Below are positions 22,982 through 33,856 of a stretch of DNA of 33,856 nucleotides, one piece after another; position 1 is the stretch's first letter; the number at the start of each line of letters is the position of its first letter. The translations under genes and the position numbers were made by a program. This DNA comes from Borrelia coriaceae (GTDB taxonomy: Bacteria > Spirochaetota > Spirochaetia > Borreliales > Borreliaceae), in contig NZ_CP075096.1 in NCBI RefSeq assembly GCF_023035295.1, positions 1 to 33,856 on the forward strand, in the 5' to 3' direction. The notes beneath the pieces were generated by a model. It saw nothing but the letters and a program-made list of their open reading frames with translations, made no database searches and was not told where the DNA came from.

Positions 22982-25900
22982 ATGGATAAAAAATTAATTA
23001 AAGAATACATACATAACCTAAAAAACACTGCTATAGAAGATAAGACAGAATTTACTGATAGAGCATATTTGGAAAAGCTGCTTAATGAAATTAAACCAAA
23101 TCCAAACATCCAAATTCAACACGAACCCAAGCGCCACAAAGAAAGTTTAGGCGCTCCCGATTTTATTATTAGAAATAACGGAAACATAATAGGCTATATT
23201 GAAGTAAAAAAAATTGAACAAAATTTGGATGACACATTAAAGAGCCCTCAAATTGACAAATACAAACAATTATCAAATAATATTTTACTTACAAATTATA
23301 TTGAGTTTATATGGATAAAAAATGGAAATATTAACTTAAGAGAAGTTTTAGTATTTAAAACTGATTTAGAAAAAATCAATACAAAAATCGATCAAACTAA
23401 ATCAGACACAGTTATAAGTATTTTAAACGAATTTTTTAAAACCTCTGTTGAAAAAATCGAAAACGTTGAAAAGTTAGCTAGTTTACTTGCAAAAAGAACA
23501 AAAACTTTAAAAGATTTAGTAGAACAACATTTGAATTTGTATATAGACTTAAAAAAACAAAGTACTTTAGTAGGCACCTATAATATCATTAAGGAGAATA
23601 TATATAACAATGAGCTTAAAGTTAACGAGTTTGCAGACTCAATTGCACAAACTATTACATATGGATTTTTTCTTGCTAAATTAAATAATACAAATAATTT
23701 AATAATTGATTTTGACAATATTAAAAAATTCATACCTAATAATTTTACATTAATACAAGATATACTAAAACTCATTGATAATATTGCAATTAGTAGTGAA
23801 TATGGTAATATAAGATGGATCTTAGAAGAACTTATTAATATTGTTAATAACATTGATTCTAAGACGATTTTTGAGCAATTTTCATTTACTCAAAATAAAA
23901 ACTCAAATGGTGAACATACAAAAGACCCATATCTATATTTTTATGAAGACTTTTTAGTTAAATATGACAAAAGCTTAAGAAAAAGTAAGGGGGTATATTA
24001 CACACCACACTCCGTTGTTAATTTTATTGTGAGTAGTTTGAATAAAACTTTAAAACGCAATTTTAATTTAGAGAATGGTTTTGCAAATAGGAATAAGGTC
24101 ACTGTGCTAGATTTTGCTACTGGTACTGGTACATTCTTGCTTGAAGTCATTAAATGCATTTTAAAAGAAATTCCAAAGCAAACCGGAAAACAAAAAGACT
24201 ACATCAATGAACATGTGCTTAAGAATATATACGGTTTTGAATATTTAATGGCTCCATATGCGGTTGCTCATTTGAAATTATCTCAATACCTAAGAGAGGT
24301 TTGTAATTTCAAATTTGAAAGCGAACAGGCAAGATCACAAATATTCTTAACAAATACTATTGATTTAACACCTGTTTCAAATCAAGAAAGTTTCAAAGCC
24401 TTTTTCCCTGCAATCAGTGAAGAGAATAAACTTGTTAATGAGATTAAAAACAAACCCATTTTGGTAATTCTCGGCAATCCTCCTTATAATGCAGGATCAA
24501 AGAATAATAATGCTTATATCCTAAAATTAATTAAAAGTTATAAAACAATAGACAATATACCACTCAATGAAAAGGCAATAATTTCATTAAATGATGATTA
24601 TGTAAAATTTATTAGATTTTCAGAACATAAGATTGAAAATGCTGATGAAGGTTTATTAGGTATTATTACTAATAATGGATTTTTAGATAATATAATATTT
24701 AGAGGAATGAGATATCATTTACTTAAAACTTTCGATGAAATTTATATTATTAATTTGCATGGTAACTTAAGGAAAAAAGAACAAACAGATGATGGTAATA
24801 ATGATGAAAATGTATTTGATATACAAACAGGTGTGGCGATTAGTATATTTGTTAAATATAAAGATTCAACTAAGAAACATGCATTTGCTAATGTCTTTTA
24901 CAAGAGCCTTAAAGGAAAGAGATTGAAAAAATATGAATTTTTAAATACAAATGATATCTTTAGTATTGAATTTGAACAACTTAATGTTAAAACTCCTTAT
25001 TACTTCTTTGTTAAAAACAATTTAGATGATGAAAATTCTTATAAAGAAGGAATCTCAATTAAAGAGATATTTAAGGAATATAAAATTGGAGTAGAAACCC
25101 AAAAAGATAAAATAGCAATTGATTTCACCAAAGAAGAACTTTTAAATAAATTAAATGACTTGGCTTACCTTGATGAACAAACCGCAAGAAATAAATATGA
25201 TTTAAAAAAAGACTCTAGAGATTGGAGATTGCCAATTGTTCAACAATTTTTAAAAGCTACAAATATAGATGAAAAGTATGTTAAAAATATAGCTTATAAA
25301 CCATTCGATAATAGATTTACTTACTACACTAACAGCAAAGGTGTTGTAAGTTGTCCATGTTATAAAATAATGAAACACATACTAAATATTGATAATAATA
25401 TAGGTTTAGTTACAACAAGAATCCTGTCAACAAATAGATTTAAACATGCTTTCATTTCTTCTATCCTTGTCAATAGAGATTGTATTTCCAGTAAATCTTA
25501 TTTTTTTCCATTATTTCTTACAGAAGAACAAAAATCTTTAGAAAGTTCCCTAAAAGAAAATTTCAAAGAAAGTTTTAGAAAATTTATTAATGATAAATAT
25601 CCTAAACAATTTAAGCCACAAGAAATATTAGGGTACATTTATGCAATACTCAATTCAAATATCTATAGAGTTAAATTTTATGAATTTTTAAAAATAGATT
25701 TTCCAAAAATCATTTTTGTAGATTCAGTTGAAACCTTTGAAAAACTTAGTCATTTAGGAACTAACTTAATAAACGCGCACTTACTAAAAAATACGAATAA
25801 ATTAGATAAAAGTATTGGTACGCATATATCAAACAGCAATGAAAAACATATTGTACAAAAAATTGAATACCTAAAAGAAACAAAAGAACTTAGTTATAAT

Positions 25901-26119
25901 AATAACAGCAAATTTACACATGTACCTTGCAATGTATATGAATTTGTTATCGGAAATTATCAAGTAATTAAAAATTATTTAAAGTACAGAAAAGGCAGAG
26001 AATTAAGTATTGATGAAATTGAACACCTTGAAAAGGTTATTCGAGTGATTCATTATACAATTGATATTCAAAATCAAATTGACTTAACAACTTGTAAACT
26101 TCAAGAAATTAATACTTAA
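22982..26119 (+). CDS. Type IIG-like restriction-modification enzyme
   Basis: A 1045-residue single-chain enzyme expected to both cut DNA and methylate adenine. The N-terminal nuclease motif is visible: P59-D60 and, about 14 residues on, E74-V75-K76 (PD-(D/E)xK fold). The N6-adenine methyltransferase part has the SAM-binding motif VLDFATGTGTF (D377) and the catalytic NPPY at 499-502. The remaining C-terminal part probably reads the target sequence. Length and order fit the Borrelia plasmid family that includes BBE02 and BBQ67 of B. burgdorferi, which lower transformation by foreign DNA. The frame is intact and all catalytic residues seen are present. The start is ATG at 22982; no Shine-Dalgarno is visible. 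It reads opposite to the archive and sits between two vlp fragments, suggesting insertion or replacement. Confidence 0.92.
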   Translation: MDKKLIKEYIHNLKNTAIEDKTEFTDRAYLEKLLNEIKPNPNIQIQHEPKRHKESLGAPDFIIRNNGNIIGYIEVKKIEQNLDDTLKSPQIDKYKQLSNNILLTNYIEFIWIKNGNINLREVLVFKTDLEKINTKIDQTKSDTVISILNEFFKTSVEKIENVEKLASLLAKRTKTLKDLVEQHLNLYIDLKKQSTLVGTYNIIKENIYNNELKVNEFADSIAQTITYGFFLAKLNNTNNLIIDFDNIKKFIPNNFTLIQDILKLIDNIAISSEYGNIRWILEELINIVNNIDSKTIFEQFSFTQNKNSNGEHTKDPYLYFYEDFLVKYDKSLRKSKGVYYTPHSVVNFIVSSLNKTLKRNFNLENGFANRNKVTVLDFATGTGTFLLEVIKCILKEIPKQTGKQKDYINEHVLKNIYGFEYLMAPYAVAHLKLSQYLREVCNFKFESEQARSQIFLTNTIDLTPVSNQESFKAFFPAISEENKLVNEIKNKPILVILGNPPYNAGSKNNNAYILKLIKSYKTIDNIPLNEKAIISLNDDYVKFIRFSEHKIENADEGLLGIITNNGFLDNIIFRGMRYHLLKTFDEIYIINLHGNLRKKEQTDDGNNDENVFDIQTGVAISIFVKYKDSTKKHAFANVFYKSLKGKRLKKYEFLNTNDIFSIEFEQLNVKTPYYFFVKNNLDDENSYKEGISIKEIFKEYKIGVETQKDKIAIDFTKEELLNKLNDLAYLDEQTARNKYDLKKDSRDWRLPIVQQFLKATNIDEKYVKNIAYKPFDNRFTYYTNSKGVVSCPCYKIMKHILNIDNNIGLVTTRILSTNRFKHAFISSILVNRDCISSKSYFFPLFLTEEQKSLESSLKENFKESFRKFINDKYPKQFKPQEILGYIYAILNSNIYRVKFYEFLKIDFPKIIFVDSVETFEKLSHLGTNLINAHLLKNTNKLDKSIGTHISNSNEKHIVQKIEYLKETKELSYNNNSKFTHVPCNVYEFVIGNYQVIKNYLKYRKGRELSIDEIEHLEKVIRVIHYTIDIQNQIDLTTCKLQEINT

Positions 26120-31179: not shown

Positions 31180-31734
31180 ATGGGACTTGCACAATCCGTA
31201 ATTACGCAACAGATGGTGATATCTGAGCTAATTAAAGCAGGGATTAATAGGGAGATTGCTATTGATCTGTCTTACAGATATTATAAAAATGAGCTTACGT
31301 ATAAAGACCTTGAGTATTTGGAAAATACGTTTAATCTTATGCTTGACAAGGTTGAGGCACTTTTACAATCTGAGATTAAGGCAGTCAAGATAGATCTAGA
31401 TAATAAGATAGAAAATGTAAAAAGTGAATTAAAATCAGATATAAAAGACCTTGATAATAAGGTTGATAATTTAGAGATTAATTTAAATGTAAATATAGAG
31501 AATATAAGAAGTGAATTAAAATTAGATATAAAAGATCTAGATAATAAGATAGAAAATGTAAGAAGTGAATTAAAGTCAGATATAAAAGATCTAGATAATA
31601 AGATTGATGTCAAATTTAATGAACTTGATATTAAAATTAATAATTTAGAAAAGAATAATAAGTGGATCTTTGGACTAACTTTTGCATTATGGTTAACAGT
31701 TTTGGGAGGTTTTATAGCCTTAATATTTAAGTGA
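31180..31734 (+). CDS. bdr: Bdr family repeat membrane protein
   Basis: A 184-residue Bdr (Borrelia direct repeat) protein, a family carried on many plasmids of all Borrelia. The conserved N-terminus is present (SVITQQMVISELIKAGI, then AIDLSYRYYKNELTYKDLEYLE). Residues about 65-150 are a long coiled coil built from repeats of the type SELKSDIKDLDNK, with an 18-residue (54-bp) unit near the end and a 29-residue spacing before it. Residues about 162-184 (WIFGLTFALWLTVLGGFIALIFK in two halves) are a transmembrane helix, so it is probably anchored in the inner membrane with the coil in the cytoplasm. The ribosome-binding site AAGGAG lies seven nt before the ATG. Function of Bdr proteins is unknown; copy number of repeats varies among alleles. 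Confidence 0.92.
   Translation: MGLAQSVITQQMVISELIKAGINREIAIDLSYRYYKNELTYKDLEYLENTFNLMLDKVEALLQSEIKAVKIDLDNKIENVKSELKSDIKDLDNKVDNLEINLNVNIENIRSELKLDIKDLDNKIENVRSELKSDIKDLDNKIDVKFNELDIKINNLEKNNKWIFGLTFALWLTVLGGFIALIFK
31423..31610 (+). repeat. Direct repeats within bdr
   Basis: AGTGAATTAAA followed by a GATATAAAAGA(T/C)CT motif occurs at 31423, 31510 and 31564, spacings 87 and 54 bp, both multiples of three. Repeat number changes would preserve the frame. Confidence 0.8.
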
Positions 31735-32371: not shown

Positions 32372-33121
32372 TTATAATATTGTGGATGTTAATTTGGTGC
32401 AATATGGATTGATGCTTTCTGGTATTGATGATCCACTGTCTATGCATTTAAAGCGAAGGTTATCCATGTTGAAATACACATGAGTAACGAGTTTATGAGT
32501 TTCTACGAATTTAAGCATAAATTTGCAGAAATTATTGTCAGTATAATTGTGTGTAAGTATATTGAGAGTTAAGTTGTAATCATGTTTTGCCTTTGAATAA
32601 ATATCTTTAAGTTTTATGAAAATGGGCTTATATTTGTTATAACGTTTTAAGAATTCTTGTATCCTAGGGTAATTGAACATGACTATAGTTTCGCTTGTAT
32701 GACTTAATATCGCTCCCAATTCAGTTATTTCATATATGATATAAGCAGCTTGGTCAAGATTTTTATGTTTGAGAGTATTAATAAATGTGTGGTAATGTTT
32801 AATTATGTCGTGGTATCGAAATGCTACATTGTTTGATAGTGGGGTACATGTGTTACTGTTTGGCTTGTATTTACATTCTAGAGATAATTCTTTATCAGAA
32901 AGGCTAAGTACAGATTTAATCTTTTCGATTTGGTGTGTGAAGTATACTCCTAAATTTGTCAAGTTATTAAAATTAGTTTTCCAGTTTTTTACACGAACTA
33001 GTTTTCTTTTTAAGTAGCGGTATTTATCATAATCATAATATTTTGTGTTTTCTTTTTTTATATTTTCACATATAGAGAATGTGTTAGTTGTAATAGTGAT
33101 GAGCAGTATTAATTTTAACAT
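32372..33121 (-). CDS. Putative exported protein, unassigned
   Basis: A 249-residue protein with a hydrophobic leader (LILLITITTNTFSIC). Cys18 could be a lipidation site: the lipobox (FSIC) is loose, but Borrelia tolerates this. The start ATG has AAGG eight nt upstream. The mature protein is helical, Tyr-, His- and Lys-rich, with a cysteine pair about 10 residues apart (LECKYKPNSNTC) and two further cysteines near the end (NFC.. and FKC, plus PYC). I recognise no family. It is the last gene before the right telomere and reads away from it. Possible distant relative of the lipoprotein at 1628-2512 (weak, by eye). An even cysteine number after the leader would fit disulfides outside the cytoplasm (inference). 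Confidence 0.75.
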   Translation of the reverse strand: MLKLILLITITTNTFSICENIKKENTKYYDYDKYRYLKRKLVRVKNWKTNFNNLTNLGVYFTHQIEKIKSVLSLSDKELSLECKYKPNSNTCTPLSNNVAFRYHDIIKHYHTFINTLKHKNLDQAAYIIYEITELGAILSHTSETIVMFNYPRIQEFLKRYNKYKPIFIKLKDIYSKAKHDYNLTLNILTHNYTDNNFCKFMLKFVETHKLVTHVYFNMDNLRFKCIDSGSSIPESINPYCTKLTSTIL

Positions 33122-33306: not shown

Positions 33307-33385
33307 TTCAAAAAAATATCAATATGTATACTGTCATGGATCTTGAAAGTAAGTAATAAAATTATGTGAAATATAAATATTTTTT

Positions 33386-33423
33386 CTAAAGCATTTTTCA
33401 AAATTTATGCTTTAGAAAATTTT
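33386..33423. repeat. Hairpin near right end
   Basis: TTTTCTAAAGCAT and ATGCTTTAGAAAA are perfect 13-bp arms about 13 bp apart, followed by a T run on the plus strand. It has the form of an intrinsic terminator, but no plus-strand gene ends near it. Confidence 0.7.
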
Positions 33424-33640
33424 TTTGCTTATTATTAATAACTTAAAAATCGATATAAAAAATATTATGAGAGTTTTAAATTATTATTTGATTTGCCTGT
33501 ACGTTATAAAGAATGTTATCTGTTGTAAAGTTAGAGATAGTAAGATTTTTGTTATTGGGTTTTGTACTATTTGATATTAAGACGTAATTTTGTTGGGCTT
33601 TATTGTGAATTAGTCCGTAGTGGATTTGAATATAAAAAAA

Positions 33641-33820
33641 TGTCAACTTTGGTATATTTTCGGGACAACTATTGTATAGTTTTGTGGCAACTTTGCTCAT
33701 TTTAGGTGCAACTCATAAAAATAAAAAATCTTAAGAGACAACTTTGTGCATTTTCATGGCAACTATGTATAGAATTGAGGTAGCTATGTTTTTATTTGAG
33801 GAAACTTTGTTCATTATTAT
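33641..33820. repeat. Degenerate ~21-bp subtelomeric tandem repeats
   Basis: The motif (G)GCAACTTTG, or a close variant, recurs at about 33644, 33666, 33688, 33709, 33739, 33760, 33781 and 33802. Spacings are 22, 22, 21, 30, 21, 21 and 21 bp; the 30-bp unit has an A-rich insert. Eight units end about 36 bp from the right end. Not seen at the left end. Confidence 0.85.
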
Positions 33821-33830
33821 TAGCCAAATA

Positions 33831-33856
33831 CTTATGTACTAATAACAAATTATATA
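33831..33856. other. Right hairpin telomere of linear plasmid
   Basis: Read inward the end is TATATAATTTGTTATTAGTA, which is close to published Borrelia telomere ends as I remember them. GTTATTAGTA occupies positions 11-20 from the end (33837-33846), exactly as at the left end. Confidence 0.88.

Follow-up and report, generated by a model that had tools for sequence, protein, structure and literature searches.

What is the run of short repeats that lies just inside the right end of a Borrelia coriaceae plasmid, and what might it do there? The window, that is, the whole stretch of 33,856 nucleotides that was analysed (contig NZ_CP075096.1), is the complete contig C21 of a 24-contig Borrelia genome (G000; 1.79 Mb) of the relapsing-fever type. 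An earlier note, made from the sequence alone, had pointed to eight degenerate copies of a core beside the right telomere. We found that these copies form a phased array, that arrays of this layout recur at telomeres in relapsing-fever and Lyme relatives, and that they often adjoin PF-88, a gene whose product has the predicted fold of a telomere resolvase catalytic domain. Our preferred reading, to which we give a probability of roughly 45%, is that the array is a cis-acting protein-binding element of hairpin telomeres. On it, PF-88, the telomere resolvase ResT or another factor would form a nucleoprotein stack that acts as a scaffold and in the autoregulation of PF-88. (Contig ends are denoted by L for left and R for right.)

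Eight cores on one face of the DNA beside a telomere

The earlier note was right about the number and the place of the copies. Counted from the C of CAACTTTG, the eight cores start at positions 33644, 33666, 33688, 33709, 33739, 33760, 33781 and 33802, with core-to-core steps of 22, 22, 21, 30, 21, 21 and 21 bp. The near-constant spacing of 21–22 bp that it described holds for six of the seven steps, but not for that from copy 4 to copy 5, which measures 30 bp and recurs in relatives. Its claim that all cores face the same side of the DNA was confirmed by a resultant of 0.92 for the core positions in the window at 10.5 bp per turn. The array had a core-chain score of 30.9, compared with a maximum of 8.2 over 200 Markov shuffles; because the weights of the score were chosen by hand with the array already known, this comparison is a sanity check and not a blind test. 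No inverted pair of at least 12 nt with both arms within 33644–33809 was found.

Towards the tip, the array is followed by a short spacer, the box 3-like motif TACTAAT and the terminal sequence AACAAATTATATA. The last core ends 27 bp from box 3 and 47 bp from the end of the sequence. Both a box 3-like and a box 1-like motif, as is characteristic of Borrelia telomeres, were present at the tip. The comparison motif for box 3 was taken as quoted in passages of PMC6945570 and PMC12958805, and the definition of box 1 from a passage of PMC4370689. A hairpin is inferred at the right tip, where the contig stops.

The earlier note had also considered that the repeats might be the decayed remains of a heptad-coding sequence. 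A seven-residue periodicity does follow from the 21-bp steps over one stretch, but the two 22-bp steps shift the frame, and the same non-triplet steps are found in relatives. Stops occur in all three minus-strand frames, clearly in two plus-strand frames, and also in the third. Because of these frame shifts and stops we reject a coding origin, which retains practically no probability.

Arrays recur at one type of telomere within the genome

A three-core pattern matched the 1.79-Mb genome 35 times, in every case at most 163 bp from a contig end and on 15 ends altogether; a reversed control pattern gave 3 matches. These 15 ends, each with an array of seven or eight cores, fell into two classes when the contig ends were read and compared by DNA similarity. 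Class A comprises 11 ends (C8L, C9R, C12L, C12R, C13R, C15R, C16R, C18R, C19L, C20L and C21R) with eight cores such as CAACTTTG or CAACTATG. The steps are identical to those of the window at nine of them, while C15R has one step of 22 bp for 21 and C8L one of 28 for 30 (22, 22, 21, 28, 21, 21, 21 when recounted by eye). Class B comprises four ends (C11R, C20R, C22R and C17L) with seven cores (CAACTATT) at steps of 21, 21, 31, 21, 21 and 21 bp; C22R has one 22-bp step, and contig C17 is cut before its left hairpin. The earlier statement that the array has no left counterpart is correct for this plasmid (C21L) but not genome-wide, as 14 other ends carry counterparts. Leftover cores were seen at C10R and C23L (two each) and at C1R, on the chromosome, and C23R (one each). 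The chain search places spurious cores at a few ends, namely core 4 of C8L and of B. nietonii, and one extra core at C16R and some turicatae-type ends.

Full arrays were linked to one type of tip. In this genome, whose ends are not independent, 19 tips have a box-1-like TTATA, and 14 of these carry a full array, compared with none of the 16 other telomeric ends; the latter number is 16 instead of 18 because C2R and C4R, telomeric by a chance motif only, look circular. Of the five remaining box-1 tips, two are single-core ends and three have other repeats. No core is present at C13L.

A third repeat type, with cores near GTATACTTA, occurs at C10L, C19R and C22L; its 21-bp period is weak (z 1.9–2.3), and it was therefore left out of the array count. 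All three ends have a box-1 tip, with a relative of PF-88 some 250 bp away, and the GTATACTTA-like repeat resembles the telomere box TATACTAAT. At the chromosome right end (G000:C1 918010–920509) and the C23 end (36567–39066), the last 300 bp are almost exactly alike and hold one core-like copy, 35 bp from box 3.

The layout is common to relapsing-fever and Lyme relatives

Array and phasing were also sought at related plasmid ends, and both recur in relapsing-fever and Lyme species, the exceptions being two B. burgdorferi ends and a B. maritima end. Terminal matches of the three-core pattern were obtained in G002, G003, G004, G005, G007, G009, G010 and G017. Interior matches, for example in G008, G013, G015, G024 and G028, resemble chance, and those in G019 and G021 are low-complexity heptamer repeats. 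From the contig ends read, the layout is present in six named relapsing-fever species, at B. hermsii DAH lp28, B. nietonii lp89, B. miyamotoi lp29-2-2 and lp23, B. turicatae lp24, B. parkeri lp28 and B. puertoricensis lp39.

In the Lyme group the core is on the other strand: read tipward it is TAAAGTTT (reverse complement of AAACTTTA), compared with CAACTTTG in relapsing fever. A Lyme-type pattern matched 16 times, in 6 of the 18 genomes of the Lyme genus; none of the 18 genomes of the other genus had a match, and a control pattern gave none either. Fourteen of these matches are near contig ends, and the other two flank a head-to-head palindrome in G022:C5, which is an assembly through a hairpin. 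A DNA similarity search likewise returned array-like ends in several named Lyme species.

What both groups have in common is a single step of roughly 30 bp, or 20 bp in some cases, followed by four cores. This long step measures 30 bp in class A (28 at C8L), 31 bp in class B, 30 bp in Lyme ends, 29 bp in B. miyamotoi lp29-2-2, and 20 bp in the type found in B. turicatae, B. parkeri and B. puertoricensis. The steps in B. garinii and B. afzelii are 21, 30, 21, 22 and 21 bp, with four cores after the 30-bp step. No chain better than shuffles was found at the B. burgdorferi lp28-5 and lp28-6 ends or at the B. maritima end read, and the chain of B. valaisiana was weak against shuffles.

Two atypical copies were seen. 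The left end of G004:C11 (L106), in a B. hermsii genome, has a three-core array that keeps the 35-bp register to box 3 and looks as if its middle had been deleted between repeats. In G002:C13 (13337–13500), an array-like piece in the contig interior continues into other coding-looking sequence and is possibly the scar of a telomere fusion.

Confinement of the array to relapsing-fever or vmp plasmids was ruled out by the Lyme arrays and by the array-bearing linear plasmid lp28 of B. hermsii DAH (NZ_CP073145.1), whose annotation is phage-like (tape measure, portal and terminase genes). On this annotation we also dropped lp28 as the vmp expression plasmid. The likelier one is B. hermsii lp26, which has a Vsp gene near its right end; the final 290 bases there show no array, and the contig stops before a telomere box. 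Because the array-bearing lp28 is phage-like, the end replacement of a vmp expression plasmid reported in passages of PMC6011951 is no test of the array.

Cores keep their register to the hairpin and vary less than their surroundings

At relapsing-fever ends, the distance from the last core to box 3 is mostly 35 bp (range 33–36; 32 at one short chain), and at Lyme ends it is 24 bp in five cases and 37 bp in one. Since 35 and 24 bp differ by about one helical turn, the rotational phase of the cores relative to the hairpin stays nearly the same. Based on one idealised step list per array type, the mean phases at 10.5 bp per turn for class A, class B, the turicatae type, G018 and B. garinii were 3.1, 3.3, 4.4, 2.7 and 3.2 bp, respectively, with resultants of 0.92–0.99 compared with 0.02–0.29 at 9.5 bp. 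For the G018 step list, 10.3 bp gave a slightly better fit than 10.5. Because the lineages are related, their common register should be read as a pattern; it does not amount to a tally of independent events.

The cores were also more conserved than the sequence around them. Among eight non-redundant class A ends (three near-duplicates were left out), 11 of 63 core columns were variable compared with 39 of 102 array-spacer columns (P 0.005), and pairwise identity was 0.935 for the core, 0.849 for the array spacer, and 0.807 and 0.560 for two inner blocks. In an information profile, CAACT was most constrained (up to 2.7 bits), positions −4, −2, 6 and 7 had moderate values of 0.66–0.78 bits, and T-run positions did not exceed 0.39 bits. 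The units of B. miyamotoi lp23 were entered with one wrong step and add noise to this profile; their core and spacer percentages were ignored.

The profile bears on the idea that the array acts by intrinsic DNA shape, with T-tracts in helical register bending the end and no sequence-specific protein involved. T-rich runs are indeed present in the units, whose period equals two turns, yet constraint is centred on CAACT and is low in the T-runs, which makes this idea very improbable.

The same comparisons can be set against a second possibility, that the array is a passive old repeat with no function of its own, kept alike by end exchange and gene conversion. Near-identical ends on different replicons (C21R, C15R and C19L), the end common to chromosome and plasmid (C1R and C23R) and the shrinking of copy number by deletion, down to three cores in G004:C11L, are in keeping with such a passenger. 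It would not be expected, however, that phase and architecture persist between genera despite differing spacers and core strand, or that variation is lower in cores than in spacers. The register also survives changes in length by about one turn (a step of 20 instead of 30 bp in the turicatae type; Lyme ends 11 bp nearer to box 3), and the arrays are linked to one telomere type. On balance we find a passive repeat unlikely.

The array often adjoins the PF-88 gene

In relatives, the gene inward of the array encodes a protein of about 250–270 aa, is transcribed away from the tip and bears the name PF-88 in one database. In the ends read, the array lies upstream of its start codon and not inside an expressed gene. 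The PF-88 proteins of B. hermsii and B. garinii are 40% identical, and a profile search found the family in 28 of 36 genomes. There were 46 long matches, 12 of them at unknown distance; 30 of the 34 others start no more than 350 bp from a contig end and are directed inward, some of these contig ends being cuts and not telomeres. Two further matches at the G022:C5 palindrome were set aside. Non-terminal copies are those on C11 and C22 of this genome (987–988 bp), on G013:C6 (1,248 bp) and on G004:C5 (22 kb inside). No terminal array was seen in the eight genomes without PF-88, of which three are single contigs and carry little weight.

Promoter-like sequences were read by eye. In relatives, TTGNNN overlaps or abuts the first core, and the −10 element stands 6–8 nt before ATG. 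B. hermsii has TTGACA-N16-TATATT overlapping core 1, with the start codon 8 nt past the −10, and B. garinii has TTGCAA-N16-TATAAT abutting the array, with the start codon 6 nt past it, which suggests a leaderless PF-88 start. In the window, as judged by eye, the TTGACA is no longer followed by a −10 or a start codon at the correct spacing, and PF-88 is a remnant. There, tblastn aligned residues 12–90 of PF-88 protein P0004 over 33491–33703 (26/79 identical, E 4e-6); the inner part of this match alone is convincing, and the outer part probably arose where the alignment ran on into the array.

Could the array be only an operator or upstream activating region of PF-88, its position at the telomere being incidental because PF-88 is the last gene on the plasmid? 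It directly abuts the promoter in B. hermsii and B. garinii, and PF-88 is conserved across both genera. Against this, only one of the 11 class A ends, C13R, has an intact PF-88 directly at the array (fragments at seven and none at three, at E 0.01), yet spacers and flank have changed more than the cores. PF-88 is separated from the array by another gene at C11R and C22R, and the eight-core arrays at the left end of B. hermsii lp26 and the right end of G004:C12 have no PF-88 match at E 1e-6. Moreover, the distance of the array is held to the telomere box, and B. burgdorferi lp28-5 and lp28-6 keep the promoter while the array decays. We therefore regard a pure operator as rather unlikely, and a promoter element as the sole reading was rejected on the same points.

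In the PF-88 proteins P0011 and P0012 (B. parkeri and B. turicatae), the first part is Lyme-like and the last part near-identical to the relapsing-fever type, a mosaic as if from gene conversion. Next inward of PF-88, a Bdr gene is present in the relapsing-fever and Lyme ends read (L127:1158–1907, L125:127–762 and L130:336–893).

PF-88 has the predicted fold of a telomere resolvase, apparently without the catalytic residues

The predicted fold of PF-88 is that of the catalytic domain of ResT, with model residues from 27 on matching ResT from 163 on; the absence of other folds from this structure comparison is no evidence against such folds. PF-88 has this predicted fold and a weak colinear sequence match in common with ResT, TelA and TelK, but differs from them at the active site and in the N-terminal domain of the resolvases, of which the model comparison found no counterpart. 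In the ResT of this genome, Arg198/199, Lys224/225, Arg296, His324 and Tyr335, which we take to be the catalytic residues, occupy positions that are invariant in the ResT comparison. Opposite Arg198-Arg199, PF-88 has Ile and a gap, and no Arg, His or Tyr is found among the 22 invariant columns of 28 PF-88 proteins. PF-88 thus apparently lacks the resolvase catalytic residues, in a residue-by-residue alignment that covers the first half of the active site. Pfam family PF16684 was not among the 17 families listed in a Pfam scan of the 28 members, and no credible family was obtained from Pfam, NCBIfam or PHROGs scans or from a PDB sequence search.

Other features of the window

The features of the right end are collected in Table 1. 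On the inner side of the array, a terminator-like inverted repeat with a T-run spans 33375–33426. Members of the 249-aa MLKLILLIT... family adjoin several telomeres of this genome. Further inward, tandem 54- and 87-bp repeats at 31408–31643 lie in a 184-aa open reading frame (31180–31734) that looks like a Bdr-type repeat protein, and a 1045-aa open reading frame (22982–26119) looks like a combined restriction-modification enzyme.

Table 1 Features at the right end of the window.
Feature	Position	Strand	Basis or remark
Repeat array, eight 8-bp cores, consensus CAACTTTG	33644..33809	+	Sequence reading, chain score, recurrence
Spacer of the single 30-bp step, core 4 to core 5	33717..33738	.	
Spacer, last core to box 3	33810..33836	.	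35 bp from last-core start to box 3 start
Box 3-like motif TACTAAT, TG before it	33837..33843	+	Reverse complement of TAGTATA-like motif
Telomere tip AACAAATTATATA	33844..33856	+	Box-1-like TATAAT on opposite strand; contig stops here
TTGACA (reverse complement of TGTCAA), overlaps first core	33641..33646	-	Same as -35-like hexamer of B. hermsii PF-88 promoter
PF-88 gene remnant, inner part NNKNLTISNFTTDNIL	33491..33550	-	tblastn and list of open reading frames
Next gene inward, 249 aa, MLKLILLIT...	32372..33121	-	Transcribed away from hairpin

Discussion

Little is settled about how bacteria shield their hairpin telomeres and distinguish them from breaks; one worked case is phage TelN (passages of PMC12624138). 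The bacterium studied here has dozens of hairpin ends. Spaced repeats at many such ends, often beside a resolvase-like gene, point to a protein cap or a control site of bacterial telomeres that has so far gone undescribed. The phased array, tied to one telomere type and to this adjoining gene, offers a concrete candidate for a telomere-bound complex, and it may bear on the ready exchange of Borrelia plasmid ends.

In the reading that we prefer, a protein-binding telomere element, up to eight sites would face one side of the DNA in a nearly fixed rotational register to the tip, within a module of hairpin, array, promoter and a PF-88 gene running away from the tip. Several protein copies would load side by side on the cores and form a nucleoprotein stack beside the hairpin. 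The best guess for the binder is PF-88 itself, otherwise ResT or another factor. PF-88 is a natural candidate because it is resolvase-like without catalysis, and TelN, according to passages of PMC12624138, shows that hairpin protection needs no catalysis. The stack may label or shield the end, or it may guide the resolution or pairing of telomeres; as it would also cover the PF-88 promoter, we propose that PF-88 is autoregulated. In the window, the PF-88 gene is dead and the array persists, presumably bound by protein from other gene copies. Because many ends have no array, it is not essential for every end. The earlier proposal that a telomere- or plasmid-associated protein binds here is supported in part, in that the repeats look like a telomere-linked and putatively protein-binding array.

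A bolder version of this reading, which we put forward as a doubtful one, would see here the bacterial counterpart of a telomere-capping complex. A dead resolvase paralogue, PF-88, would sit on a phased array, control its own gene and mark or protect a subset of ends, in a module that would predate the split between relapsing-fever and Lyme lineages.

Among known systems, iteron-type arrays consist of several direct repeats of about 17–22 bp in helical register. The steps and the resultants of 0.92–0.99 at 10.5 bp agree with this, and the array resembles iteron and operator arrays in its direct repeats about two helical turns apart and in the adjoining gene of a possible binder. In contrast to iterons, it lies at the telomere (at most about 220 bp away) and has no replication-initiator (rep) gene directly adjacent; in the ends read, the genes next to it encode PF-88, Bdr or MLK-family proteins.

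The only earlier description found in open-licence PMC papers, searched without supplements, is a remark in PMC5870499; older telomere papers may hold one. It notes that lp17 of B. afzelii K78 and B. spielmanii A14S has imperfect tandem repeats of 21 bp, with their centre near bp 100, which are probably the same element. The passage treats them as a strain difference only and gives no motif, phase, or link to telomere or gene. The downstream homology sequence of B. hermsii, 214 bp with a 31-bp inverted repeat, flanks vmp genes (passages of PMC6011951). Like the array it is subtelomeric, but the array consists of direct repeats without an internal inverted pair and occurs in Lyme species; on this description we set the two apart. 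TelN offers the likeness of a resolvase that protects hairpins without catalysis, but it binds a tip site, and the passages of PMC12624138 mention no repeat array.

The closest comparison is with the Borrelia telomere boxes 1 and 3 used by ResT. These lie within about 20 bp of the tip, while the array is a separate block of 166 bp that starts 27 bp further in and is missing from many telomeres. Both stand at the same replicon ends, though, with the array in a nearly fixed register to box 3 and, in this genome, complete only at box-1-like tips.
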